IMG/VR virus record: IMGVR_UViG_3300022853_001508
Location: 1-64,000 of that record
DNA length: 64,000 nt
Direction: 5' to 3' (one strand)
Source of the DNA: a virus
Made by a program: the position numbers and the translations under genes. Below the pieces are notes generated by a model. That model made no database searches. It saw nothing but the letters and a program-made list of their open reading frames with translations, and had not been told where the DNA came from. Shown one piece after another: positions 7,567-45,420 of this stretch; within the stretch, counting starts at the first letter, position 1; the number at the start of each line of letters is the position of its first letter.

Positions 7567-8622
7567 TTAGAATTCTGCGTCTGGATAAAATAGTTTAAGA
7601 GTAATTGGGATTGGCTTGGTTTCTACTGTTCCACAACTTGGGCATTCGAAATCATAATCCATATTTAGTCCTGGCTCAATTTTCTTGAGTTCATCTCGGA
7701 AATACTTAGAGTCTTGCATTGGCATAGCCTCCACATAGCTTTTGATATACACCTTGTCGCGCTTCCCATTTACTTCCATGATGTGAAGAAGATATTTGTG
7801 GGTAAGTGATTTTGAAATCTTAAATCTACCTTTTTTAAAATCCTGCTGTGCATACTTGTTGATTATGGATTCATCTGCTCCTGTCAACAGTCTAAACTTG
7901 ATTGGGACTTTAAGTTGCTTCATTTGAAGTGAAAACTCTCCCATATCATCTGGCTTATGTTTTACTTCGTTTGCTTTTAACTTTGATAAATCCACTATTG
8001 GAGCATGTGCCTTGCCGCAGCTGCCACATGCTCTTGGGCCTGGCTCATAATCGTCGCCAAGTCCAGTTCTTCTAAGTTGAATCAAAACATAATTGCGGTC
8101 GCCCGTTAGCATGTCTATTGGTCTGATGTCTTTATCTATGACAGATGCATCGAGGAGCGCATCTAATTGTTCGTTAGCTCGAATCAAACCTATATCATAA
8201 AGGATGTCATCTTCTGTTGCTGTAAGATGCTTTATTGTGACGGTAGATTTTCCTCCTTTGTAAAAGTATCCACGAGACGGGAGGTCAATTTCTTCGGTTG
8301 GTGCCTGGAAGAAATCCCCAACGTCTTCTGCTCGAATGTTGTTTCTAGTTGCGACCTGTGCTTTTTCCGCCTCTTCCTCTTGTTTCTTATCTGCTGACTC
8401 CGCTTTTGAAATCATTAGATACTTTTCAGCTTGGTCTTTAGGGATTCCCATTTTGGTTAACAAAGTAGGAATGTCTTTGTCTTCTGTTCCTTGGTCTTTT
8501 AAAGCTTGAATTATAGCTCTAACCTCTCCTGGGTCAACATTTCTTTCAGAGAGATTTTCAAATGTATCATCGGTCTTGACAGGGTTGTCTTTTCTTTTGC
8601 CAATTTCTATTTTCTCACTCAT
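7567..8622 (-). CDS. second T4 gp26/gp51-like baseplate protein
   Basis: 351 aa. The first 100 residues are charged and helical. The family domain then starts with IDLPSRGYFYKGGKSTVTIK and an E-D-x-I-L-Y segment. It has two Cys pairs, CGSCGKAH (about residue 200) and CPSCG near the C-terminus. It is a paralogue of the next gene downstream and probably heterodimerises or acts successively with it in baseplate hub assembly (inference). A late-type promoter lies about 20 nt upstream, making this the first gene of the unit. Confidence 0.75.
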   Translation of the reverse strand: MSEKIEIGKRKDNPVKTDDTFENLSERNVDPGEVRAIIQALKDQGTEDKDIPTLLTKMGIPKDQAEKYLMISKAESADKKQEEEAEKAQVATRNNIRAEDVGDFFQAPTEEIDLPSRGYFYKGGKSTVTIKHLTATEDDILYDIGLIRANEQLDALLDASVIDKDIRPIDMLTGDRNYVLIQLRRTGLGDDYEPGPRACGSCGKAHAPIVDLSKLKANEVKHKPDDMGEFSLQMKQLKVPIKFRLLTGADESIINKYAQQDFKKGRFKISKSLTHKYLLHIMEVNGKRDKVYIKSYVEAMPMQDSKYFRDELKKIEPGLNMDYDFECPSCGTVETKPIPITLKLFYPDAEF

Positions 8623-8684: not shown

Positions 8685-9107
8685 TTAAGTATTGGTTATA
8701 CTTGAATCCAAATCTACTTGAGAAGATGTTTGTGACATCTGGTTGACCCTGTCTTTATAGTCTTTATTTTGCTGATTCATCTTCCCCATTGTGGCAAGAA
8801 CTCTGCCAAGTTCTTCTTCCTGGTCATCAGTTGACTCAATTTCGTCTTCAATGCCATCCATTTTTGTTTTATCAGTTTTTTTCATCATTGTGTTGATTGA
8901 CTTATCTGGATGCACTTGAATACCCTGCTGCTTCTTTAAGCTGTTGAGACTTTTTTCTTGGTCTTTTTTTCGCTGCTGAGCCACAGCAATTAAATCCTCA
9001 ATTGATTCTGGAGAATATTCTAGCTCCTCGCCATTATCTGCCCCAATATTAGAATACTCCAATAAGTATTTGCGAATTTCGCTTCGTATGTATGACTCGT
9101 TGTTCAT
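8685..9107 (-). CDS. hypothetical charged helical protein, 140 aa
   Basis: MNNESYIRSEIRKYLLEY start; the rest is Gln-, Lys- and Glu-rich helix, probably coiled coil, with a Ser/Thr-rich tail. Its ATG overlaps the stop of the upstream nuclease gene as TAATG, so translation is probably coupled. The short amphipathic N-terminus (RSEIRKYLLE) resembles the start of the protein at 63388-63699 (FRDILRESLQ) and may be a prohead or virion targeting helix, which is speculative. Function unknown. Confidence 0.55.
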   Translation of the reverse strand: MNNESYIRSEIRKYLLEYSNIGADNGEELEYSPESIEDLIAVAQQRKKDQEKSLNSLKKQQGIQVHPDKSINTMMKKTDKTKMDGIEDEIESTDDQEEELGRVLATMGKMNQQNKDYKDRVNQMSQTSSQVDLDSSITNT

Positions 9108-9565
9108 TATTGTTCTTTATTGTATTGTTCAAAATGCTCACACACAGAACTGTAATTTTCATTGATGTCTTTTTCCCATACTCTTTCCAGAACGTAACCC
9201 AACCCCCGTGCAAGGCTGTCTTTATAGAGGTCGTTCTTTTTGTTCTTAATTTGCATATGATTTAGCTCCCCCTCGGTATAGACTTTTGGATTTCCATGGT
9301 AGTAATCTCCATCAATCTCCACTAAAACATTATAGTCTGGTAGGTAAAAATCATAAATCACATCGTTAAGAATTCTTTGAGGTTCGCAATTCACACCCAT
9401 CTTCTTCATCATCTTTTCAAATTTCTTTTCTGGGGCGGTCATCTTTTTGGTCATTGCCGCAGCTTGCCCTTCCATATATTTTTTCTTGTTTATCTCATGC
9501 TGGTCTTTATACAAGTCTTTATACATCTGCTTCTTTAACCACGCGGCTTTCTTCTGCATGCTCAT
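9107..9565 (-). CDS. Vsr-like (PD-(D/E)XK) endonuclease, probably homing
   Basis: 152 aa. A basic helical N-terminus is followed by a compact nuclease core: YDFYLPDYNVLVEIDGDYYH then a C-terminal LERVWEKDI. The E-x2-G-D-x2-H and W-E-x-D signatures are the same as in the three other Vsr-like nucleases of this window (13559-14548, 16201-17265 and the remnant at 58884-59270). This small form lacks the long N-terminal recognition region of those proteins. It is translationally coupled to the downstream gene by TAATG and has a late-type promoter about 10 nt upstream. A free-standing homing endonuclease is most likely; a repair-type Vsr enzyme is less so. Confidence 0.7.
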   Translation of the reverse strand: MSMQKKAAWLKKQMYKDLYKDQHEINKKKYMEGQAAAMTKKMTAPEKKFEKMMKKMGVNCEPQRILNDVIYDFYLPDYNVLVEIDGDYYHGNPKVYTEGELNHMQIKNKKNDLYKDSLARGLGYVLERVWEKDINENYSSVCEHFEQYNKEQ

Positions 9566-9651: not shown

Positions 9652-10878
9652 ATGGAGAGCAATATTAACATAGAACTTCTTAAATCACTCACGGAAAAAC
9701 TTAATCGACGCGACAAAGATATTCTTGATTCAGAAAAAATGTTTAGAGGTTTTTTTGAAAACTCTTCAGCTGGAATGTGTATAGCAAATGTTGAAGATGA
9801 AATGTTTATTAAAGTTAATTCTGTTTTTTGCAAGTGGTTAGGATACTCTGAAGAGGAATTGCTATCATCTCCTATATTGTCTTTTATTTCTCCGAACAGT
9901 GTTGATAAAACTAAAGCTGTTTTGACTAAGCTAAAAAAAGGTATTGAGAGTGTTATTGAAGGATTTGTGAATGAATATCTCCATAAGGATGGTCATAGCG
10001 TTTGGTTAAAATGGAATTCTTCAATTCCTGATAATAATGGGATTAATTACAGCGTTTGTGCGAACATAACAACAGAAATTCAACAAGCTATAAAAATTAG
10101 TAAACAAGATAAAATTTACAAAGTTTTAACTGAAAGTAGTCACGAAGCTATTTGCTTGCATGACACCAAAGGAAATTATATATACGTTTCTCCTTCTTAC
10201 GAAAAGCTTTTTGGATACAGTCAAAGTGACATGGTTGAAAAAAATGCTTATGATTTTGTGTTGCCTGAAGATGTTGAAAGAATAAAAAAAGAATCACACA
10301 AACCTTTGATGAAAAATAAAGATTTTCAAATTGCAAGGTTTCGACTTCGACATAAAAAAGGGTATTATGTGTGGGTAGAGTCTTGTTCGAAGCCGATACT
10401 TGAAAATGGAGAAATTACTGAAATAAGGACTAGCACTAAGGTGATTACAGAAGTTATAAAATCTGAAAAAGAAGCTTTTATAAACAGGGAAATATATGAG
10501 AAAATTCTTCATAACACTCGTGAACTTGTGAAAGTGTATAAAATAAACGATGGCCCTCCGTCTTTGGTTTACATATCTCCCTCTTGTTTAGAATATACTG
10601 GATATGCTCCTGAAGAGCATGTAAAACAAAGTTTATCAGAATTGATTCATCCAGAAGATGAAGAAAAAACAATGAAAAAAATGTTAAGTGTTTTGAATAC
10701 AAAAAAAACACTTATTGTAAAGTACAGAGGGAAGCATAAAACAAAAGGTTATAAGCTAGCAAGCAGCATAGTAAGTCCAATATTGAATGAAGAGGGAGAA
10801 GTGAGCTATATTGTTTTGTCTAGCAAGGTAATCCAAGAGTTAAATAACGATAAACATAACAGTGAAGATGTCGGATAA
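9652..10878 (+). CDS. triple PAS-domain protein without output domain
   Basis: 408 aa from ATG 9652; a TTG three codons earlier is less likely. Three PAS domains in tandem lie at about residues 25-135, 150-255 and 285-395. Each shows the typical pattern of a residue block ending in Y-x-x-E-x-[LM/H], a D-G or K-G-x-x-x-W-V strand and a closing G-x-I-x strand (for example HKKGYYVWVESCSKPILENG). Short helical linkers join them. No histidine kinase, GGDEF, HTH or other output domain follows. PAS domains bind ligands or partners, so this is a sensor or scaffold. The 3' end overlaps by 11 nt the gene for a membrane-anchored coiled-coil protein, its likely partner. It is probably expressed late from the divergent promoter. 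Confidence 0.8.
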   Translation: MESNINIELLKSLTEKLNRRDKDILDSEKMFRGFFENSSAGMCIANVEDEMFIKVNSVFCKWLGYSEEELLSSPILSFISPNSVDKTKAVLTKLKKGIESVIEGFVNEYLHKDGHSVWLKWNSSIPDNNGINYSVCANITTEIQQAIKISKQDKIYKVLTESSHEAICLHDTKGNYIYVSPSYEKLFGYSQSDMVEKNAYDFVLPEDVERIKKESHKPLMKNKDFQIARFRLRHKKGYYVWVESCSKPILENGEITEIRTSTKVITEVIKSEKEAFINREIYEKILHNTRELVKVYKINDGPPSLVYISPSCLEYTGYAPEEHVKQSLSELIHPEDEEKTMKKMLSVLNTKKTLIVKYRGKHKTKGYKLASSIVSPILNEEGEVSYIVLSSKVIQELNNDKHNSEDVG

Positions 10879-11299
10879 CCAAGAAAAAAATGGATGGAAC
10901 GAATGGTCAAAGCACATCATTCGTGAATTAGAACGTTTAAATGAAAGCTCTGAAAAACTTCGTGAAGGCATTCAAGATAGTAATTTAGAGATAACAAAAC
11001 TTAAAGGACTAGAGAAAGAAATTGTTGAGCTAAAATCAGGAGTAACGTCAATTAAAAATGAGATAGAAAAATCCTCTTACAAATTTCAAGCCCGTGTAGA
11101 TGAAAGAATAAAGACTCTGATTAAAGAAATTAACGAAAATGTAGTTGAAGTTAAAAATTCAACAGACAGCCTCATTGAAAGAATTTCTAAACTTGAAGAC
11201 TACAAAAGCTACATAGTAGGGATTGGAGTTGCTGTCGGTATAATAATAACCTTTATTATATCAGTATTAGCGCTTTTTGACTGGGGTTCTATCACTTAA
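10868..11299 (+). CDS. coiled-coil protein with C-terminal membrane anchor
   Basis: 143 aa, started at ATG 10868 (MSDNQEKNGWNEWSKHIIRE) inside the end of the PAS gene; a GTG two codons earlier is an alternative. Residues 15-110 are a continuous heptad-like coiled coil rich in Glu, Lys, Ile and Leu. About residues 116-140 form one hydrophobic helix (IVGIGVAVGIIITFIISVLA) followed by a short tail. It would be an inner-membrane tail-anchored protein with a cytoplasmic coiled coil. The gene overlap with the triple-PAS protein implies they act together (inference). No match to a holin or spanin is evident. Confidence 0.65.
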   Translation: MSDNQEKNGWNEWSKHIIRELERLNESSEKLREGIQDSNLEITKLKGLEKEIVELKSGVTSIKNEIEKSSYKFQARVDERIKTLIKEINENVVEVKNSTDSLIERISKLEDYKSYIVGIGVAVGIIITFIISVLALFDWGSIT

Positions 11300-12151: not shown

Positions 12152-12508
12152 CTAATTGTCGTAAAATTGAGAGTTGTCCTCTTGTTGTTTTATATGTGGG
12201 CACACGACGATGGTCTGTTGTAAAACATTTAACACCCTCATCATAGCTCCTAAATCGTACATCTTATATTCTCGACAAAGCTTATGAAAATCATTTTCAC
12301 AAACGTATCTAAATGTTGGTTGTCCGTCGATTTCAAGTCGAAGAGGAAAATAATCCCATCCGTCTTGCATCATGCTGTTTTTGTACAATAACGTGCCATT
12401 GGCTCGCATTCGCCGAGTTGTCCCTATTGATGCGATTATACCGCCTGATTCTTTTGATTCCTCCAAGTTATTCAAGAGGTGTTTGTCAAACCAATAATGT
12501 TTCTTCAT
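12152..12508 (-). CDS. hypothetical protein in polymerase operon, 118 aa
   Basis: Start at ATG 12508 (MKKHYWFDKHLLNNLEESKE), overlapping the end of the polymerase C-terminal gene by 23 nt; an ATG two codons earlier is possible. The protein is mixed alpha/beta and ends in a polar Gln/Asp/Asn-rich tail (HIKQQEDNSQFYDN). No domain recognised. The overlap places it in the same transcript as the polymerase pieces and the HTH gene, so a replication-associated job is plausible. Confidence 0.55.
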   Translation of the reverse strand: MKKHYWFDKHLLNNLEESKESGGIIASIGTTRRMRANGTLLYKNSMMQDGWDYFPLRLEIDGQPTFRYVCENDFHKLCREYKMYDLGAMMRVLNVLQQTIVVCPHIKQQEDNSQFYDN

Positions 12509-13577
12509 ATGCATGCATTACTGTTGTTAATTTAACTCTTCCGTTAAAGTTTAAAAATCCTTTTTCGTTTCGTTTGAATTTGCCTACGTATACAGCTTGT
12601 TTCTGTAGCTGAGGAAGAAGTTTTTCACTAATTGGAGAAAATATATTGAACTTTACAGTGTCAATACCATCGCTTCCATGTATAGAGATAAAGTCTTTTC
12701 CTTTTTTAGTTTTCTTAAATAAGATATCATTGATAATAAACCAGTAAAAACCTTCTTCAGCATAATGTGGTAGTGGAAGAATAGCTTCTTTCGACTTGTC
12801 ACTCATTTCCCCCATTCGGGTGTGAATAATTGAAACTCGATTAATTTCTTCCATATCAAAACCACATACTCCCATAAATTCATCTTGCTTTTCAATATCG
12901 GAAGTTGCTGCGTATTTTAAATGGTCTATTCTATGAGTGTACTCGATATCATCCATGTCGAACATTGCAAACTGCGAAGCGTCTTTAGGTTTTTTCTTCC
13001 TGTTTTTATCTCTTAGAAACATTAAATATTCTCTAGAAGTGCTCCAGTCATCAAACATTCCCGCTTGTAAACAAGAACGAAAAGAAGTCTTGTTGAATTT
13101 AGTGAAGGGTATATCAAAAAAAGCAGCCATAGATATTTCGCTAAATTTCTTCCCTTTTATTGCTAAATTATCTTTCAACTCTTTATAAGCAATATCTCCC
13201 ATCCCAGTCATGCTAGAGAAACCCATTGTGATTTCGTTGGGGCCAGTCATCGACCATCTCCATATTGAGAATCTAGTCGGAGGTTTTATAGTGATTCCTC
13301 TAGATATTGCAGCGGTGATTGTCTGAGTCAGCCATTGTTTTTCTTTCTCCTTTCCAGCGTTTGAAGACTTTTGCTCGTTCAATAGCGCTGTATAAAAGTA
13401 TACTGGGTAGTAATGCTTTAAGTATAAAGTTTGCATAGCGATGTATGCGTATGAAACCGAGTGACTATTTGAAACACAGATATCATTTGCATAGAAGTTG
13501 TGATGTTCATTATCGATTTCTAAATCGTAAGTATCTACCACTCCTATTTCTTCAACTTCTATAATAGATTCAAACAT
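12486..13577 (-). CDS. dnaE: DNA polymerase III alpha, C-terminal piece with split-intein C half
   Basis: 363 aa. The first 37 residues are an intein C-terminal half (VVDTYDLEIDNEHHNFYAND then ICVSN). The C-extein begins SHSVSYAYIAMQTLYLKHYY, the conserved DnaE segment after the catalytic palm (family form FNKSH..AYA..AYQTAYLKAHYP). The remaining about 325 residues correspond to the helix-hairpin-helix and OB-fold part of PolIII alpha. The protein becomes functional only when the partner ending FNK + intein N half (14582-16204) is spliced to it. The gene start overlaps the upstream endonuclease by 19 nt. The penultimate intein residue is Ser instead of the usual His. Confidence 0.85.
   Translation of the reverse strand: MFESIIEVEEIGVVDTYDLEIDNEHHNFYANDICVSNSHSVSYAYIAMQTLYLKHYYPVYFYTALLNEQKSSNAGKEKEKQWLTQTITAAISRGITIKPPTRFSIWRWSMTGPNEITMGFSSMTGMGDIAYKELKDNLAIKGKKFSEISMAAFFDIPFTKFNKTSFRSCLQAGMFDDWSTSREYLMFLRDKNRKKKPKDASQFAMFDMDDIEYTHRIDHLKYAATSDIEKQDEFMGVCGFDMEEINRVSIIHTRMGEMSDKSKEAILPLPHYAEEGFYWFIINDILFKKTKKGKDFISIHGSDGIDTVKFNIFSPISEKLLPQLQKQAVYVGKFKRNEKGFLNFNGRVKLTTVMHAYEETLLV
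13467..13577 (-). mobile_element. split intein 2 of DnaE, C half (37 aa)
   Basis: Residues 1-37 of the C-terminal polymerase piece. Block F is YDLEIDNEHHNFYAND and block G is ICVSN followed by Ser+1. It pairs with the N half at 14585-14866; an endonuclease gene lies between the halves. Confidence 0.8.
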
Positions 13578-14548
13578 TTTATTTTGTTTTTTATAATTGA
13601 CTCGTTATTAATTATATCATTCTCCCACAATTCTATAAGCTGAAAACTCCCGTCACTTTCAACTGCATGCCTTTTTTTTATATCTCTTTTCTTGTTCTTT
13701 ATTTGAACATCATGAGTACACCCGCTATGTCTTGTATTTTGATTACTATGAAAAAAATCTCCCTGTACTTCTATTAAAATGCTTCCTATTCTAAAGTCAA
13801 AAGAATAACCATAACAAGAAAACTCTTCTTCCCATGTACCTTTGAATTCTTTAGCGTGATTTGATTCAGAATAAGTATCTTTTCCAAATCGTTCACTTAG
13901 CATTCTCTTTACCTCAAGATGAGGTTTTGATTGACCATGAGAATAGACACCACTTTTGTATCTAGCTATCGTTATATCTCTAAGGCGCTGTTTAGTTTCT
14001 TCTGAATGTTTAAATCCAGTATGACCATGTATTTCTCTTTTTTTAGCACTCTCTGACATGCGCTCAAGTGTTTCATTGCTGAATTCAACGCCTTTTCTGC
14101 GCTCAGAAAGCTTTTTCATGACTTCATTATTATCTTTAGTTTTTCCTTTGTTCCAAGCTTTTATACCGTACATAGGGTTTCCTTTTCCTTTGCGTTCTTC
14201 CTTCATTCTTTCGACGTGAAGTTTATATTCTTTATTATTTTCCGCCACGTACTTAGCAGTTTCTGTTGTAGTACAATTATTCGAAAATTTACCGAAAACA
14301 ATAGAGCCTTGAAGTTTGTAACTAGGCTTATCTCCTGTAATCGGACACAAAGGAGTTGTAATGGATTCTGGAAGCAAATCTACCAAACTCTTCCCATAAA
14401 CACTTTTGTGATAATAATTTGATATCTCAGAATTGTAGTAGTTGTTGTTTTGTCTAATTAAAACTAATGACAACTTTGCCCTCCATTTTTTCATATCAAT
14501 ATCTTCGCCATTCACTATATCCTTTTTGAAATCGATTTTTACTTTCAT
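13559..14548 (-). CDS. Vsr-like homing endonuclease with NUMOD3 repeats
   Basis: 329 aa. The middle carries NUMOD3-type DNA-binding modules (MYGIKAWNKGKTK; GHTGFKHSEETKQRL). The C-terminal 110 residues are a Vsr-like nuclease with DFRIGSILIEVQGDFFH and a closing LIELWENDI, matching E-x2-G-D-x2-H and W-E-x-D. It lies exactly between the two halves of a split intein in dnaE and overlaps the start of the downstream half. This is the fractured-gene arrangement known from phage metagenomes, in which the nuclease cuts the uninterrupted allele and spreads the break. It is transcribed within the polymerase operon. Confidence 0.85.
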   Translation of the reverse strand: MKVKIDFKKDIVNGEDIDMKKWRAKLSLVLIRQNNNYYNSEISNYYHKSVYGKSLVDLLPESITTPLCPITGDKPSYKLQGSIVFGKFSNNCTTTETAKYVAENNKEYKLHVERMKEERKGKGNPMYGIKAWNKGKTKDNNEVMKKLSERRKGVEFSNETLERMSESAKKREIHGHTGFKHSEETKQRLRDITIARYKSGVYSHGQSKPHLEVKRMLSERFGKDTYSESNHAKEFKGTWEEEFSCYGYSFDFRIGSILIEVQGDFFHSNQNTRHSGCTHDVQIKNKKRDIKKRHAVESDGSFQLIELWENDIINNESIIKNKIKCLNLL

Positions 14549-14581
14549 AATATATAGTATATAGACTGAGATTTGTTAAAA

Positions 14582-16204
14582 CTAGTTTATTTTTACAGAA
14601 AGCTTTTGTTCAATAATATCTTTCAGAGGTAACATACCTTGTTCAGTCATTATTTTATGGTCCAAAGTGCATTCTAAAATTTTCCCACTACTTGTCTTAA
14701 TTCGATAAACTTTCTTTTTACCGTTGTTATGACGAGCTTTCACTGGAACCCATTCATTTTTTTTCGTGTCTGGATTATAACCTAAAATCATATCTCCTGG
14801 CCTAGTTTTTAAAAGAGATATTTTTCCCTTTTCCTTTTCTGTGACTTCACAGTTTTCAGATAAACATTTGTTAAACGAATACCCTAGATAATCAGAAAGG
14901 TATAAAAGGATTTTATCAACCTCTTCTTTCGGAACACCATTTTCCTCTGCTCCAGATACAAACTTACTCCAATACTCTTCGTAAGCTTTATAGTTCTTAC
15001 TTTCCTTTTCGTCCTGAGTGAGTTCTTCTCCTTGGTTTGTTTTTTTTATAAGCTTCGCAGCTTTATCAAGTGCACGACGCAAGTTATCACCCTCTCCTAA
15101 ATCCATTCCCGCTATCTCTTTTGCGATAAATTGAATTTGCTCCTGAAACACCAGTACACCGTTAGTTTTTTCTAATATTGGCTTTATCAAATCAGATGGA
15201 AATTCAATCTGTCCTGGGAACCTCTTGTTATCAACGTATTGACGGTGGGCTCCAATTCCCATTGGGCCTGGTCGATAAAGAGCATTACAAGCAGCCATTT
15301 CTTCAAAGTTCTCAACGTTGAGTCCTCGAATCAAAGCGTTCATGCCTGGCGATTCAAATTGGAATATACCGTGGTTCTGACCAAGCATTAACTCCTTGTA
15401 AAGGTTTTGGTCATCAAACTGCTCATCAATATTCATTATTGTATCGAACAAATCAATCTTTTCACCATCCTTAACCATCTTGATACAATCCATGATGATA
15501 TTAATTGTTGACACTTTCAAACGGTCAAGCTTCAATATCCCAAGATAACTCAAGTCTTTTCCAGAGCGGTCCCCCTCTTGATATGCTGATACAATTGATT
15601 TATTAGAGACAATCATATTTGTTGGGAGGTAGTCCCAAGAAGGCCCAGGAGTAATAACAACTCCAGCGGCGTGTTTACCAAAACCTCTCACTTGACCCTG
15701 AAGAGCCAGTGTTTGTTCTATAATTACTTTGTTGGATGAATCAGTAAGCCATCTTTGTACGAGTGGACTGCAATCATCTGACTGAGCATGGTTTTCTAAC
15801 CACCAAGCCAAGTTGTATTCGACTTTGTCGAACTTCGGCATCTCTTTAGTGATTTGAGCTACATCCGATTCAGTTCCTGTTGCTTCTGGCCCACGGTGTG
15901 CACGAACAACGTCCTTCAAACATCCTCTTTCATTCCATTTAGAAAAAGTACCAACACTCATTACTCGTTCTCTACCATATTTTTTGTAAAGGAAGTCATC
16001 AGTTTCATGGTCTGTTCCTGTTTGAAAATCAATATCTAAATCGGGAGGGCTATTGTGTATGATTATCAGTGAGTTACACTCTTTATTTAAAGCTTTACTA
16101 GAAGTAGATTTGACCATAAAATATGGGTCCCCTTCAAAAGATAAGTCATAAACTGGCCCGTCGTACTGTATCTTGCGTATTGACTTTATGCTGACTGTCT
16201 TCAT
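14582..16204 (-). CDS. dnaE: DNA polymerase III alpha, middle piece with intein halves at both ends
   Basis: 540 aa from ATG 16204, whose TGA/ATG overlap with the upstream endonuclease (ATGA) fixes the start. Residues 1-51 are an intein C half ending LIIIHN. The extein begins SPPDLDIDFQTGTDHETDDF, containing the catalytic PDxDxDF aspartates. It continues with KYGRERVMSVGTF and ALYRPGPMG, all PolIII alpha palm/finger motifs. After YLGYSFNK the last 94 residues are the N half of a second intein (starts CLSENCEVT; block B CTLDHKI). This central polypeptide must therefore be trans-spliced at both ends, giving about 395 residues of final enzyme. Confidence 0.9.
   Translation of the reverse strand: MKTVSIKSIRKIQYDGPVYDLSFEGDPYFMVKSTSSKALNKECNSLIIIHNSPPDLDIDFQTGTDHETDDFLYKKYGRERVMSVGTFSKWNERGCLKDVVRAHRGPEATGTESDVAQITKEMPKFDKVEYNLAWWLENHAQSDDCSPLVQRWLTDSSNKVIIEQTLALQGQVRGFGKHAAGVVITPGPSWDYLPTNMIVSNKSIVSAYQEGDRSGKDLSYLGILKLDRLKVSTINIIMDCIKMVKDGEKIDLFDTIMNIDEQFDDQNLYKELMLGQNHGIFQFESPGMNALIRGLNVENFEEMAACNALYRPGPMGIGAHRQYVDNKRFPGQIEFPSDLIKPILEKTNGVLVFQEQIQFIAKEIAGMDLGEGDNLRRALDKAAKLIKKTNQGEELTQDEKESKNYKAYEEYWSKFVSGAEENGVPKEEVDKILLYLSDYLGYSFNKCLSENCEVTEKEKGKISLLKTRPGDMILGYNPDTKKNEWVPVKARHNNGKKKVYRIKTSSGKILECTLDHKIMTEQGMLPLKDIIEQKLSVKIN
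14585..14866 (-). mobile_element. split intein 2 of DnaE, N half (94 aa)
   Basis: Starts at Cys after FNK, with block A CLSENCEVT and block B around ECTLDHKIMTEQG, and ends at the stop codon. Partner half at 13467-13577. Insertion is three residues C-terminal to the classical cyanobacterial DnaE split-intein point (Y/CFNKSH). Confidence 0.8.
16052..16204 (-). mobile_element. split intein 1 of DnaE, C half (51 aa)
   Basis: Residues 1-51 of the middle piece: VYDLSFEGDPYFMVKS (block F) and SLIIIHN followed by Ser+1 (block G), with an extra segment between them. Pairs with the N half at 17594-17881. Confidence 0.8.
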
Positions 16205-17265
16205 TGAATTGCTTTTTTTAAGGTAGCTTTTACTTCTTCTCTGTTTTTGTCCCAATCATGTTCCCATATGATAAAAACACGATATCCTGTTATCTTTTTA
16301 ATTTGCTTAATTCTCTGTTCGTCAATCTCCCAAAGTTGTCCTGCTGTTTTCTTTTTATGAGGATGAAAGTAATCTGCTTTAAACTTTAATGGATTACAGT
16401 GCCAATAGTCTCCATAAAATTCTACTATAATACGGTTTTTAGGATTATAAAAATCTACATGATATGCTTTTTTGTTTTCAACATCAGCAACTATAATTTG
16501 TTGATTTTCACTTTCATCATAAAAACTCGAATCAATAAGCTTTAAATCAGAAACAAGGTATTCAACGAGTTTTTGCTCTTTTTTAGAACTCCCACTTCCA
16601 AAGTTGACTTGGATTTCATGTTGCACATTATCACTGTGGAATATATTCTCAACTCCATATTTTTCCATCATTGTTTCAGTCACAGCACTATAATGACTTC
16701 CTCTGTTTAAAAACCAAGGCACCCCGTATTTGTCTTGAATGGATTTAGATATCTTATCTCTAACTTCTTGTATTTGTACTGGAGAAGTTAACCCTGTTGT
16801 TCCATAAGTTTCATTTAATCCTTTTTGATATTTTTCTCTATAACCTTTTGTTCGATAGTATATTTTTTTGTAATCACCGTGCTTCATATAAAACCCATGC
16901 TCCCAAAAAAACTTTCCCCCTCTAGAAGGATGGAGTTTGTGACGTATTTTTTTGTTATAAATTTTTGTAAAATATTCAACTTGACTCCCAGTTAAAGGGT
17001 AGTTTTTAGTATCCACCTCCAATCTCATCTGCGTCTTACCACGGTCAATGATGTAATGAAAACCAGTGATGACACCAGTTTTTTTATTATCTCTAATTAA
17101 CATAGCTCCAATAATGCAAGAAGGAGAAACAGCTAAACCACACTTATATGGCCACTCTTTGATTTCTTTTTTTGTTGGAACAGCATGAATAAGAGAAGTC
17201 TCACGAAGTCTTTGGTCGAGTTCCGCTTTTGTAATATCTTCTATGCTTAATAATAAATCTATCAT
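16201..17265 (-). CDS. Vsr-like homing endonuclease in first DnaE break
   Basis: 354 aa. The first about 230 residues are a recognition region with short motifs such as EKYGVENIFHSDNVQ and QDKYGVPWFLNRGS. These occur in homing nucleases and phage endonuclease-associated domains. The C-terminal 120 residues form the Vsr-like core: VDFYNPKNRIIVEFYGDYWH with CNPLK after it, then VFIIWEHDW. The same GDYWHCNPLK is found in the remnant at 58884-59270, so the two are close relatives. It overlaps its neighbours by ATGA on both sides, between the halves of split intein 1. Probable role: cutting intein-free dnaE alleles. Confidence 0.85.
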   Translation of the reverse strand: MIDLLLSIEDITKAELDQRLRETSLIHAVPTKKEIKEWPYKCGLAVSPSCIIGAMLIRDNKKTGVITGFHYIIDRGKTQMRLEVDTKNYPLTGSQVEYFTKIYNKKIRHKLHPSRGGKFFWEHGFYMKHGDYKKIYYRTKGYREKYQKGLNETYGTTGLTSPVQIQEVRDKISKSIQDKYGVPWFLNRGSHYSAVTETMMEKYGVENIFHSDNVQHEIQVNFGSGSSKKEQKLVEYLVSDLKLIDSSFYDESENQQIIVADVENKKAYHVDFYNPKNRIIVEFYGDYWHCNPLKFKADYFHPHKKKTAGQLWEIDEQRIKQIKKITGYRVFIIWEHDWDKNREEVKATLKKAIQ

Positions 17266-26535: not shown

Positions 26536-26565
26536 AATTAGTCATTTTTGCCTTACTTTCAGCTA

Positions 26566-26874
26566 TTAGGAACCTATATAGATGCTTGTCGATATATTTT
26601 CAGAAGATTTAAAGCTGAATATACCAGACATGTAAATTGTGTTTGTTGTGATGTTATTAAAATATATTTGATATTCTCCAATGGTTGAAGCTGAAAAACT
26701 TGCTGTATAAACTCCTCTTGGAGCATCAGATATGGCAAAATTAAGAGTGGCGCCAGCATATAAAGAGCCATTTCGATAAAGCTTGTTAACGAAAGTTGCC
26801 CCAGACTCCACATTATTACTGGAATCGGTTGAAACAATGTTTTGATAGATAGTGTCTCCTGTTCTATATGCCAT
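26566..26874 (-). CDS. small beta-rich probable virion protein, 102 aa
   Basis: MAYRTGDTIYQNIVSTDSSN start; alternating hydrophobic strands with Ser, Thr, Asn and Gly, and a strand pair GVYTASFSASTIGEYQIYFN. This looks like one immunoglobulin-like or BppU-like beta domain. The small proteins at 28571-28972 and 28972-29331 have the same style. A virion decoration or tail-fibre accessory role is inferred. It has its own late-type promoter. Confidence 0.6.
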   Translation of the reverse strand: MAYRTGDTIYQNIVSTDSSNNVESGATFVNKLYRNGSLYAGATLNFAISDAPRGVYTASFSASTIGEYQIYFNNITTNTIYMSGIFSFKSSENISTSIYIGS

Positions 26875-26883
26875 TTTAAGAGC

Positions 26884-26901
26884 TTTTTTTATAAATAGGC
26901 G
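26884..26901 (-). promoter_or_regulatory. late-type promoter motif
   Basis: Gene-strand CGCCTATTTATAAAAAAA, ending about 10 nt before ATG 26874. Confidence 0.65.
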
Positions 26902-26903
26902 AG

Positions 26904-27827
26904 TTATTCTATCTCACGTATTACATTCCGTTTAGAAAGTTTATACTGTCTCATATTCCCCTCCTTTGCGAATTCATAACCTTCTTCCCACCATTTTAAC
27001 ATTTGTTCTTTGTCAAAAACGAGCGAATTTTCAGTTAGTCGATAAGGCGTGTATATAATGTTTATTTTAACATCTCTCTTATTAGCTTCTAATTGAGCCA
27101 TTTCAACATTCGTTTGTGATATTTTACGTTGCATCATTCGAATTAGTTTATTTGAGAGATGAATGACATTTTTTGTCTTGTTTTTAGCTGTTGCACCAAA
27201 TTTTTCAGGACGTAATACAATAACATCTATTTCAGTGGCTCCCGCATCAATAGCAGCTTGTATAGGGATGTGTTGCAAAATTGCACCATCAACATATTCC
27301 TTCCCTTGATGTTCAAAAAGAGTCATAAAAGGAGGGGTATTGGCGGATGCCCACAACCACTTGCAAAACATTTCATATCCCCAATCTTTTGATGACATGT
27401 ATTCAATTTTTTCATCAGTAATATTTGCGACTGCAGCAATTACTTCCTTTCCCTCACTAGTGAGTTTGTCATAGTGTTTTTCTTTGAAAAACTTTTTAAT
27501 AAGTTCTAATAAACCCTCGCTCTCGCCTAAAGTTGTTTTTAAAGTAGCTATTCTATAAGCCATTTTAAGATAACTGGGACTTCCGTCTTTTCTAAATGGA
27601 TTATAAGAGAATATGTCATCAGCGCTTACGCTGGTGTAACCTTCTTTTAAAGTGCTTATTTCACGAATAGAAGTAAGCGGAGCTAACAAGCTTCCAGTGG
27701 ATGTTCCGACGTAAAGGTCGTAGTCGAGCTTTAAGTCCTCAGTAAGATATTGAATCACACCTCCTGCCCAAGCTCCTTTTGAACCTCCACCAGAAAGACA
27801 AAGAGCTCTTTTTATTTTACGTTCCAT
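26904..27827 (-). CDS. patatin-like phospholipase
   Basis: 307 aa. The patatin hallmarks are all present: oxyanion loop GGGSKG (13-18), nucleophile elbow GTSTG (41-45, Ser43) and the catalytic aspartate in DGA (180-182). The family hydrolyses lipid acyl chains with a Ser-Asp dyad. There is no signal peptide, so it would act inside the cell or be packaged. It stands alone between two late-type promoters and ends 30 nt before the next minus gene. Possible roles are membrane damage at lysis or lipid remodelling during infection. A defence or counter-defence role cannot be read from the sequence. Confidence 0.9.
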   Translation of the reverse strand: MERKIKRALCLSGGGSKGAWAGGVIQYLTEDLKLDYDLYVGTSTGSLLAPLTSIREISTLKEGYTSVSADDIFSYNPFRKDGSPSYLKMAYRIATLKTTLGESEGLLELIKKFFKEKHYDKLTSEGKEVIAAVANITDEKIEYMSSKDWGYEMFCKWLWASANTPPFMTLFEHQGKEYVDGAILQHIPIQAAIDAGATEIDVIVLRPEKFGATAKNKTKNVIHLSNKLIRMMQRKISQTNVEMAQLEANKRDVKINIIYTPYRLTENSLVFDKEQMLKWWEEGYEFAKEGNMRQYKLSKRNVIREIE

Positions 27828-27931
27828 TTGTGTAACTATTAAAACCTTGCTTATATAAGCTTAAAAATGATAATGGTAAATACCTATTTAGATTAATCTA
27901 AAAATGTATTATAAACACACTCTTAAGTACT

Positions 27932-27950
27932 CTTTTTAATAAATAGGTAA
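27932..27950 (-). promoter_or_regulatory. late-type promoter motif upstream of patatin gene
   Basis: Gene-strand TTACCTATTTATTAAAAAG, about 105 nt before ATG 27827, divergent from the gp19 promoter. Confidence 0.5.
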
Positions 27951-27988
27951 ACTAATATCTCAAGCCGCTACAAAACTTTTTTCTGCCA

Positions 27989-28007
27989 GCTATTTATAGG
28001 AAATAAC
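27989..28007 (+). promoter_or_regulatory. late-type promoter motif for tail tube gene
   Basis: GCTATTTATAGGAAATAAC, ending 16 nt before ATG 28024, in the gap between divergent genes. Confidence 0.7.
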
Positions 28008-28023
28008 AATAAAAGCTACAATA

Positions 28024-28512
28024 ATGGCAGATATGTTTCGACCTGTTCCTATCGAGCAGGAACCAAAATTAAAAAATCGATTTGTGCTAGAGTTCCCAAC
28101 GGAGCTTGCTATCGATTCGTATATGGTTCAAACTACGAAAGCGCCTTCACTGAACATCAAATCAGTTGAGATACCATACATGAATACTTCGACATTCGTC
28201 GCTGGTAGAGCCGTATGGCAAACAATGGAGGTTTCATTCATTGACGTGATTGGTCCCTCTACGACTCAAAAATTGATGGAGTGGGTACGACTTCACTTTG
28301 AATCAGCTACGGGACGTGGCGGATACGCAGTTGGATACAAAAAGAACCTTGTACTGAAAGGGGTAGACGGACCTGGAGTTGAAATTCAAAAATGGACCCT
28401 TATCGGATGCCAAATAGTAGACGCAAGCTTTGGAGATTACGATTATAGTTCTGATGATTTGATTATGCCTACCCTGACCCTCCAACCAGACAGGTGTATT
28501 CTCAGTAATTAA
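28024..28512 (+). CDS. gp19: tail tube protein (T4 gp19-like)
   Basis: 162 aa, the size of T4 gp19 (163). The pattern NRFVLEFPTELAIDSYMVQT, with APSLNIKSVEIPYMN after it, then the conserved W-x-x-M-x-V-S-F-x-D strand (WQTMEVSFIDVIG) and the C-terminal GDYDYSSDDLIMPTLTLQPD, fit the tube family. Hexamer rings stack to form the inner tube through which DNA passes. Unlike in T4 it is on the opposite strand to the sheath gene, with its own promoter and a strong terminator right after it, suiting very high expression. Confidence 0.85.
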   Translation: MADMFRPVPIEQEPKLKNRFVLEFPTELAIDSYMVQTTKAPSLNIKSVEIPYMNTSTFVAGRAVWQTMEVSFIDVIGPSTTQKLMEWVRLHFESATGRGGYAVGYKKNLVLKGVDGPGVEIQKWTLIGCQIVDASFGDYDYSSDDLIMPTLTLQPDRCILSN

Positions 28513-43594: not shown

Positions 43595-43833
43595 GACTGA
43601 AAACGGCAAAAGATGCATGCAAAGAACAATTGATTCGTAGTGGGTTTAAAACCAAGTACAGCTCGCAGTGGTTGAGTCTTGGAGGAGACAAGCCAGGTGA
43701 GGTTTATGATGTGTGGTTCCCTCGTGGATACCGTTGGGATTGGTTCGTTCGAATCACCAAAGGGACTGTTGTTGGCTACAAAGACAACGGTGATTGGGAT
43801 TCTTCCAGTACAATAATACTTACATTTGTATGA
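43591..43833 (+). CDS. paralog array unit 2, 80 aa
   Basis: Shortest member. N-terminus reduced to MRLKTAKDACKEQLIRSGF; WFPRGYRWDWFVRITKGTVV in the middle. The C-terminus has diverged (WDSSSTIILTFV instead of WDWTN). The end of this copy matches unit 9 more than its neighbours, suggesting shuffling between units. Confidence 0.85.
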   Translation: MRLKTAKDACKEQLIRSGFKTKYSSQWLSLGGDKPGEVYDVWFPRGYRWDWFVRITKGTVVGYKDNGDWDSSSTIILTFV

Positions 43834-44105
43834 GACTAAAAACAGAAAAAACAAATGCAAAAGATGCAACAGATGCATGCAAAGAGGCACTGATTCGTGG
43901 TGGGTGTGAAACCATGACGAACAGCACAGAGGGGCTGCATCTTGGAGGAGACAAGCCAGGCGAGGTTTATGATGTGTGGTTCTATTGTGATGGACACCTT
44001 GAGGGTGAATTTGTTCGAATTTACAAAGGGACCGCTGCCTCCAAAACCAGCATTGGCTTTGTTTTTTGGGATAGGACCAACAAAATAATACTTAGATTGG
44101 TATGA
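43830..44105 (+). CDS. paralog array unit 3, 91 aa
   Basis: Start set at the ATGA overlap at 43830, not at the longer open frame from 43794. N-terminus extended (MRLKTEKTNAKDATDACKEA); GGCE replaces GGFE as in unit 5, and GHLEGEFVRIYKGTAASKTS resembles unit 5 in the middle. Confidence 0.85.
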   Translation: MRLKTEKTNAKDATDACKEALIRGGCETMTNSTEGLHLGGDKPGEVYDVWFYCDGHLEGEFVRIYKGTAASKTSIGFVFWDRTNKIILRLV

Positions 44106-44368
44106 AACTGAAAACGGCACAAACAAAAGACGCAACAGACGCATGCAAAGAGGTATTGCTTCGTGGTGGGTTTGAAAACGTGACGTACAGCGTGCGTCTG
44201 TTGCGTCTTGGAGGAGACAAGCCAGGCGAGGTTTGTGAAGCGTTGTTCCCTCCTGATGGATACCGTTGGGATTTGTTTGTTACAATCCACAAAGGGACCA
44301 TTTGGCCTGCCCCCAACGGTTTGGGTAATTGGGATTGGACCAACACAATAATACTTAGATTGGTATGA
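44102..44368 (+). CDS. paralog array unit 4, 88 aa
   Basis: MKLKTAQTKDATDACKEVLL start, identical over 16 residues to unit 5. The middle is distinctive: a VCEALFPPDGYRWDLFVTIH segment and a Pro-rich IWPAPNG before the standard WDWTNTIILRLV end. Confidence 0.85.
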   Translation: MKLKTAQTKDATDACKEVLLRGGFENVTYSVRLLRLGGDKPGEVCEALFPPDGYRWDLFVTIHKGTIWPAPNGLGNWDWTNTIILRLV

Positions 44369-44634
44369 AACTGAAAACGGCACAAACAAAAGACGCAACA
44401 GATGCATGCAAAGAGGCATTGATTCGTGGTGGGTGTGAAACCACGACGTACAGCTCGCAGGCTTTTGAGTTGCGTCTTGGAGGAGACAAGCCAGGCGAGG
44501 TTTATGATTTGTGGTTCCCTAATGATGGATACCTTGAGGGTGAATTTGTTCGAATCTACAAAGGGACTGTTGTTGGCTACAAAGACAACGGTGATTGGGA
44601 TTTTTCCAATAGAATAATCCTAATATTGGTATGA
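44365..44634 (+). CDS. paralog array unit 5, 89 aa
   Basis: Has the longer variable loop TTYSSQAFELRLGGDKPGEV shared with unit 7. GYLEGEFVRIYKGTVVGYKD combines a unit 3-like and a unit 2-like part, and the end is WDFSNRIILILV: a mosaic of other copies. Confidence 0.85.
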   Translation: MKLKTAQTKDATDACKEALIRGGCETTTYSSQAFELRLGGDKPGEVYDLWFPNDGYLEGEFVRIYKGTVVGYKDNGDWDFSNRIILILV

Positions 44635-44882
44635 AACTAAAAACGGCAAAAGATGCATGCCAAGAGGCACTGATTCGTCGTGGGTTCAAAAAACACAATG
44701 GGGACATGTGGCGGTTGCGTCTTGGAAACAAATCAGGTGAGGTTTATGAAGCGTGGTTTCCTGGCGATGGATACCGTAGGAGCGGATTCGTTCGAATCTA
44801 CAAGGGGACCGTTGGGGGCTCCAAAACCATCAGCGGGGTTGATTGGGATTGGACCAGTACAATAAGACTTAGATTGGTATGA
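44631..44882 (+). CDS. paralog array unit 6, 83 aa
   Basis: Short N-terminus (MKLKTAKDACQEALIRRGFK). The GG-D-KPGEV motif is altered to LGNKSGEV, and the loop contains NGDMWRLRL, a change shared in part with unit 9 (HLWRLWLGEKKSGE). Confidence 0.85.
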   Translation: MKLKTAKDACQEALIRRGFKKHNGDMWRLRLGNKSGEVYEAWFPGDGYRRSGFVRIYKGTVGGSKTISGVDWDWTSTIRLRLV

Positions 44883-45157
44883 AACTGAAAACGACAACAA
44901 AAGATGCATGCGATGCAAGCGATGCATGCCAAGAGGCATTGATTCGTGGTGGGTTCGAAGACACGACGTACAGCTCGCGGGCTTTTGAGTTGCGTCTTGG
45001 AGGAGACAAGCCAGGTGAGGCTTATGATGTGTGGTTCCCTCGCGATGGATACCGTTGGTATTTATTTTTTCGAATCCACAAAGGGACCATTGGGCCTGCC
45101 TCCAACAGTTCGGTTGATTGGGATTGGACCAGTGAAATAAGGCTTAAATTGATATGA
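44879..45157 (+). CDS. paralog array unit 7, 92 aa
   Basis: Longest member: the DAC element is duplicated (DACDASDACQEALIRGGFED), as in unit 11. Middle FFRIHKGTIGPASNSSVDWD; the end is WTSEIRLKLI. Confidence 0.85.
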   Translation: MKLKTTTKDACDASDACQEALIRGGFEDTTYSSRAFELRLGGDKPGEAYDVWFPRDGYRWYLFFRIHKGTIGPASNSSVDWDWTSEIRLKLI

Positions 45158-45420
45158 GACTGAAAACGACAACAGCAAACGCATGCCAAGAGACATTGCT
45201 TCGTGGCGGGTTCGAAGACGCGAACAACCCACAGTGTTTGGTTTTGCAACTTGGTGGAGAAAAGCCAGGTCCAGTGATTTATCAAGTGTGGTTTCCTCAC
45301 GATGGAGACCGAAGGGATTGGTTCGTTCGAATCCGCAAAGAAACCGTTGCTGGCCCCAAAATCAGCGATGGTTGGGTTGATTGGGATTGGACCAATGTAA
45401 TAACACTTATATTGGTATGA
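45154..45420 (+). CDS. paralog array unit 8, 88 aa
   Basis: Lacks the TDA element (MRLKTTTANACQETLLRGGF); GGEKPGPVIYQVWFPHDGDR and RKETVAGPK are unusual among the units. C-terminus WDWTNVITLILV. Confidence 0.85.
   Translation: MRLKTTTANACQETLLRGGFEDANNPQCLVLQLGGEKPGPVIYQVWFPHDGDRRDWFVRIRKETVAGPKISDGWVDWDWTNVITLILV

Follow-up and report, generated by a model that had tools for sequence, protein, structure and literature searches.

The DNA analysed here is a stretch of 64,000 nt, referred to as the window, which belongs to a virus record of 92,165 bases. Two overlapping genes, gene A and gene B (Table 1), are located on its plus strand within a long minus-strand block that also holds a T4-type baseplate hub gene (7567-8622), and the same pair is present in four near-identical contigs of this virus, one of them 141 kb long. 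Gene A has an ATG start at 9652 and a stop codon at 10876-10878, gene B has an ATG start at 10868 and a stop codon at 11297-11299, and the two genes share 11 bp (10868-10878). A GTG at 10862 is a possible alternative start for gene B.

In gene A, all three PAS_3 stretches scored above the curated Pfam cut-off of 25.6 bits, placing its product among the PAS-domain proteins, and the Pfam search found no kinase, GGDEF, HTH or other output domain in it. A first reading, made from the sequence only, had described a protein of three PAS domains with no output module, and this description is confirmed. By the same search, the protein lacks the catalytic or DNA-binding output domain that defines a two-component sensor kinase, and HATPase_c was absent from all ten virus records searched with Pfam. 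PAS proteins of bacteria and archaea are similar to the gene A product. Its AlphaFold model, based on a shallow alignment, was not usable (pLDDT 44.8).

The gene B product was modelled by AlphaFold as a single unbroken helix (residues 2-142, mean pLDDT 80.6), and hydropathy revealed one hydrophobic segment followed by a C-terminal tail of 6 residues. The overlap of gene A with a gene for a coiled coil carrying one C-terminal membrane helix, also part of the sequence-only reading, is thus borne out by the 11 shared bp, by hydropathy and by AlphaFold. According to the charge rule, the coil is predicted to be cytoplasmic, with the N-terminus inside. Pfam matches of this protein (P0002) to CorA, GrpE and similar families were below the cut-offs, and were set aside as they look like coiled-coil noise. 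Several B proteins match phrog_1103 (best E 2.7e-4) and phrog_5211 (best E 2.5e-5); these are remote relatives of B, to which PHROGs assigns unknown function and for which it records no sensor partner.

Table 1. Features of the gene A/gene B locus (positions in the window)
Feature	Position	Strand	Description and basis
Inverted repeat TTTATCATAAATAGG.../...CCTATTTATGATAAA	9575..9622	.	Sequence; between gene A and the divergent gene 9107-9565
Gene A	9652..10878	+	408 aa; PAS_3 E=1.9e-42, three stretches (Pfam)
Gene A N-terminal helix NINIELLKSLTEKLNRRDKDIL	9661..9726	+	22-residue model; segment common to partners of several sensor types
Gene A PAS domain 1	9808..10041	+	PAS_3, 35.0 bits
Gene A PAS domain 2	10180..10425	+	PAS_3, 63.2 bits
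Gene A PAS domain 3	10567..10815	+	PAS_3, 55.0 bits
Gene B	10868..11299	+	143-aa coiled coil with one C-terminal membrane helix
Gene B conserved N-terminal motif NGWNEWSKHIIRELERL	10889..10939	+	Alignments A5 and A7; consensus of 119
Gene B predicted C-terminal membrane helix	11216..11278	+	Hydropathy

The divergent neighbour of the pair (9107-9565) is a Vsr/DUF559-like endonuclease gene. To judge from its letters, the inverted repeat between this gene and gene A is possibly a leader common to both genes that carries a pair of divergent promoters; it is not kept upstream of gene A in the relatives. Across the whole virus, 17 of 122 leaders contain the motif CTATTTA and 12 contain CGTATAT, against 1.9 and 1.2 expected, and both are possible phage promoter elements. 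Neither its orientation nor its conservation decides whether the leader repeat is a pair of T4-type late promoters. Farther along the minus-strand block, a DnaE-type polymerase (12486-17265) is split by an intein-like sequence, and a protein with a weak NUMOD3 motif (13559-14548) lies between the polymerase parts. The window also contains a tandem repeat at 43606-45171 (266 bp, six copies, 71% match) with reversed GC skew, in which the minus-strand ORFs look artefactual. Outside the window, the same virus carries a CRISPR-like array (L018:6547-8498, corresponding to about 26547-28498 of G002:C1) with at least 25 copies of the 36-nt repeat GTTGTGATTCCCTTGCAGAATGAGATGATAAACAGG at a 66-nt spacing.

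Relatives at the same genomic place

Relatives of the window's clade were obtained by a polymerase scan, which yielded contigs at 55-60% identity, and the comparison comprises those reaching far enough. At the corresponding position, again opposite in strand, the coil gene follows a single-PAS gene in L042, L043 and L045. It follows a gene for a helical protein of 56-62 aa in L034, L037, L038 and L047, in L039-L041 and, among contigs from the wider search described below, in L119-L121, and the same place is occupied by an unrelated protein with an N-terminal membrane helix in L014/L032 and L046. The order in L042 is 58-aa gene, PAS gene, coil gene, with a one-base overlap at each junction; in L039, a 56-aa homologue of this 58-aa gene sits immediately before the coil gene. 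Taken together with the 73% identity between the coils of L042 and L041, these gene orders indicate that the coil has stayed in place and that the PAS gene is a cassette which has been acquired or lost. The possibility that the 56-62-aa ORFs beside B represent gene A without its sensor was rejected, because the 58-aa gene coexists with the PAS gene in L042. As these helical proteins of the window's clade do not match the N-terminal helix model described below (E above 1), they are taken as a separate component.

The sequence-only reading had named conservation of the pair as a check, and separation of the two genes in relatives as evidence against it. The relatives give a divided answer: the coil is found without a PAS gene (L034 and L039 types), the PAS gene coming and going beside a coil that is kept, whereas no PAS gene without a coil was seen in the relatives' loci. 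As A and B recur together in diverged phages, their overlap is not a matter of chance.

A coil family with exchangeable sensor partners

IMG/VR was searched more widely with profiles and with a DNA pattern for the coil motif (W-x-E-W or W-x-E-Y). After near-duplicates were removed, the gene B family had 119 distinct members including that of the window, a number not to be read as independent events since de-duplication was at 92% only; owing to the motif-based sampling, both the module count and the range of module types are minimum estimates. The 119 coil proteins are 67-144 aa long. One membrane segment is present in 115 of them, followed by a median of five residues, and lysine plus arginine residues are more numerous before than after the segment in 112. 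A single membrane segment near the end, with such an excess before it, predicts a tail anchor with the coil in the cytoplasm. In 100 of the 119 loci, the upstream ORF ends within 30 nt of the coil start; in some phages B has a short partner only, or none. The pair, believed at first to have no known counterpart in phages, is therefore widespread. The window pair (9652-11299) is one of this kind, a W-x-E-[WY] coil with a C-terminal anchor beside a sensor with an N-terminal LxxLRxLTxxL helix.

The upstream partner may be a PAS protein (1-3 copies), a cupin, a GAF protein or a short helical protein. Among 110 upstream ORFs, Pfam detected PAS_3 in 21, Cupin_2 in nine and GAF_2 in one. Neither PAS nor cupin nor GAF was detected among 91 other neighbours in the best 25 of the 27 Pfam families (Fisher p=8.6e-10 for upstream ORFs versus other neighbours, kinship among ORFs being ignored). 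PAS-like ORFs numbered 46 among the 3,538 ORFs of the 119 loci (1.09 Mb), and all 46 adjoin a coil gene, 40 upstream and six downstream. As the PAS profile behind this count was built from the coil partners themselves, Pfam PAS_3 over ten whole virus records is a less biased check; PAS_3 was found in eight of the ten, and its sole location was the gene beside the coil. The flipped order, with the PAS gene downstream, is seen at L233:725-1147 and L136:4243-5109. The PAS-like partners encoded at L155:4562-5011 and L166:4577-5011 are small and have a conserved cluster of cysteines that may bind metal.

A 22-residue helix model was built from the N-termini of the PAS-type partners, which typically read SENIxKLRxLVxELxxRD. 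Among 72 sequences, this model matched short partners (E-values of 3e-8 for L208, 2e-7 for L177 and 3e-5 for L133) as well as cupin-type partners (2e-5 for L162, 4e-4 for L134, 8e-4 for L148, 9e-4 for L132, 2e-3 for L146 and 4e-3 for L130). When run over all ORFs it gave 78 matches, 53 of them in partner genes. Contact with the coil would most naturally be made by the helix common to the sensor types. The adjacency in 46 of 46 cases, the variety of sensor domains and the common N-terminal helix suggest, with high confidence on our part, that A and B belong together and that the sensors are exchangeable, i.e., that they form a modular sensor/tail-anchor system. For the signal to run from sensor to membrane, as had been supposed, is the most plausible course given this pairing and the sole PAS_3 protein in the eight records.

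Isolated phages and the literature

No close relative of A or B was found in 50,697 isolated phage records by tblastn against INPHARED, with P0003, P0002, short-type and EY-type B proteins, a cupin A and a PAS A as queries. An Aeromonas match at E=10 was dropped as it lies in ordinary small genes, and a Raoultella match was to an RNA polymerase subunit. The isolated Agrobacterium jumbo phage Atu_ph07 has a pair (AUZ94860/AUZ94861) in which an 81-aa membrane-plus-coil protein overlaps a 536-aa PAS protein without output domain, annotated as a hypothetical protein and a 'multi-sensor signal transduction histidine'. This pair resembles A/B in architecture, as overlapping genes in a plus-strand island within a minus-strand block, but its membrane helix is N-terminal and its gene order is reversed; we regard it as an independent look-alike. 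A description of the sensor/coil module was not found in the open-access literature searched. The pair seems to represent a common but hitherto undescribed module of two genes, present in uncultivated phages, that combines sensors of different types with one kind of membrane coil. That isolated phages apparently hold no close relatives of it would explain why the module has been missed so far. What appears to be new is the architecture, swappable sensors on one tail-anchored coil.

Discussion

We propose that the gene A product is a cytoplasmic sensor, in which interchangeable domains for sensing ligands or redox state, three PAS domains in this phage, would come after a conserved N-terminal helix, and that the gene B product is an inner-membrane tail-anchored coiled coil with the coil inside and hardly anything outside. 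The N-terminal helix of A is the proposed docking helix and would bind directly to the W-x-E-W/Y helix at the N-terminus of B. A change in the sensor domains of A, brought about by a ligand, could then alter the coil and thereby the assembly of B or its contacts with the membrane. Most likely, the output would be the timing of membrane permeabilisation for lysis, with B acting like the holin component XhlA and A coupling that step to the state of the infected cell. We give sensor-gated membrane permeabilisation with a role in lysis timing a probability of about 0.4. In general terms, and just as tentatively, uncultivated phages may share a plug-in device, in which one docking helix joins the coil to a PAS, GAF, cupin or minimal helical partner, and the coil uses this partner to time a membrane event, lysis being the likeliest, according to the metabolic or redox state of the infected cell.

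Lysis timing is the leading guess because of the endolysin genes beside cupin-type modules and the XhlA-like anatomy of the coil. XhlA of prophage PBSX and gp24.1 of SPP1 are small lysis-cassette proteins with a single C-terminal membrane helix; by themselves they are harmless, together with a second holin they bring about lysis, and late gp24.1 may set the tempo (PMC6316719, PMC5589764). The predicted anatomy of B is the same. At the same time, no sensor pairing is known for XhlA, whereas B is overlapped or abutted by a sensor gene, and the two differ in sequence: there was no XhlA family match among the matches listed for P0002 or alignment A5. Nor did B give a holin match above the cut-offs; the gene B product matched phrog_937 ('hemolysin') with E=0.4, and the holin family phrog_689 was matched weakly by two of six family members (E=6.7e-4). 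A match to a known holin would have spoken against the initial reading; B is not recognised as one, although in anatomy it is similar to a holin component.

The search for lysis genes, by pattern and PHROG matches, covered the neighbours only. In four of the nine cupin-type modules (L130, L137, L138 and L148), an endolysin gene lies about 1.3 kb or less beyond B on its downstream side, a setting like a lysis cassette; B of the window phage has no such setting. At L138:4198-4563, a response-regulator receiver-like ORF lies directly between the coil gene and the lysozyme gene. In L133, a peptidase-like ORF, noted by eye and with no PHROG match, is immediately downstream of the module. The neighbours of PAS-type modules vary, and by eye include head protease-like, DNA glycosylase-like and neck-like genes; ORFs for a membrane-anchored trypsin-like protease were seen by eye downstream of the coil gene at L252:1989-2708 and L247:1623-2372. 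No recognised lysis genes are next to the pair in the window phage and its T4-type relatives. Outside the window, the same virus encodes, by eye, a signal-peptide protein resembling a lytic transglycosylase (L020:6803-7573, plus strand) and an MscL-like channel (L020:3121-3567, minus strand). The candidate lysis genes on L020 are about 39 kb or more from the pair. The early suggestion that the pair times lysis has thus gained circumstantial support from the four cupin-type modules and from the anatomy of B, and the distance of the candidate lysis genes in the window phage weighs against it.

This distance from recognised lysis genes in the large T4-type phages is also a point in favour of the main rival explanation, namely that the same module has another output, as a monitor that watches the infected cell from the membrane and serves to block or delay superinfection, envelope damage, a host membrane defence or the like. 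The pairing and topology suit such a monitor too, and T4 RI is believed to detect the DNA of superinfecting phage at the envelope (PMC8385771). However, cytoplasmic PAS, GAF and cupin domains suggest sensing of small molecules, redox state or metals in the cell rather than of incoming DNA, and some cupin types are found in lysis cassettes. We consider this explanation unlikely, although it comes next after lysis timing.

Somewhat less probable still is that A is a decoy, competing for host PAS or coiled-coil partners, with B as a mere membrane tether. PAS domains dimerise and pair with kinases, and the phage proteins have no output domain, both of which would suit a decoy. There is also a phage precedent, VqmA of vibriophage VP882, a PAS receptor by which the phage reads a host signal (PMC8284805). 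VqmA is like A in being a phage-encoded PAS receptor, but its output domain, which binds DNA, is lacking in A, and the membrane partner of A is lacking in VqmA. If A were a decoy for one host partner, this would leave unexplained why the sensor can be exchanged for a cupin, or be missing, while B stays, and the N-terminal helix common to the sensor types points to B and not to a host protein.

A late structural or virion-delivered role for the pair, with B packaged or at the virion-membrane interface and A riding along, is improbable. In the window's clade the pair does lie within a structural block beside the baseplate hub gene, and a leader motif is common to the pair and other phage genes; yet the pair is on the strand opposite to that block, B has a predicted inner-membrane tail anchor, and the neighbours differ widely among phages. 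Finally, the resemblance of A to bacterial and archaeal PAS proteins, and the presence or absence of the PAS gene between neighbouring genes within the clade, could be taken to mean that a host-acquired PAS gene and B are unrelated cargo overlapping by accident, but the adjacency in all 46 cases, the flipped orders, the common N-terminal helix and the independent sensor types contradict this and make it very improbable.

Further systems for comparison are the T4 antiholins RI and RIII, phage regulators that make lysis dependent on a signal (PMC8385771). RI is periplasmic and RIII cytoplasmic. To our knowledge, neither of them has PAS, cupin or GAF domains or a coil-anchor partner of the B type. 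Should the output prove to be lysis, the module would represent a new type of holin regulator. Apart from T4 lysis inhibition and quorum-sensing prophages, little has been explained of how phages match the end of infection to the condition of the host, and a sensor that is modular, recurs among phages and keeps the same membrane partner offers a directly testable handle on this question. The module plausibly ties cell lysis, or another membrane event, to the condition of the host.
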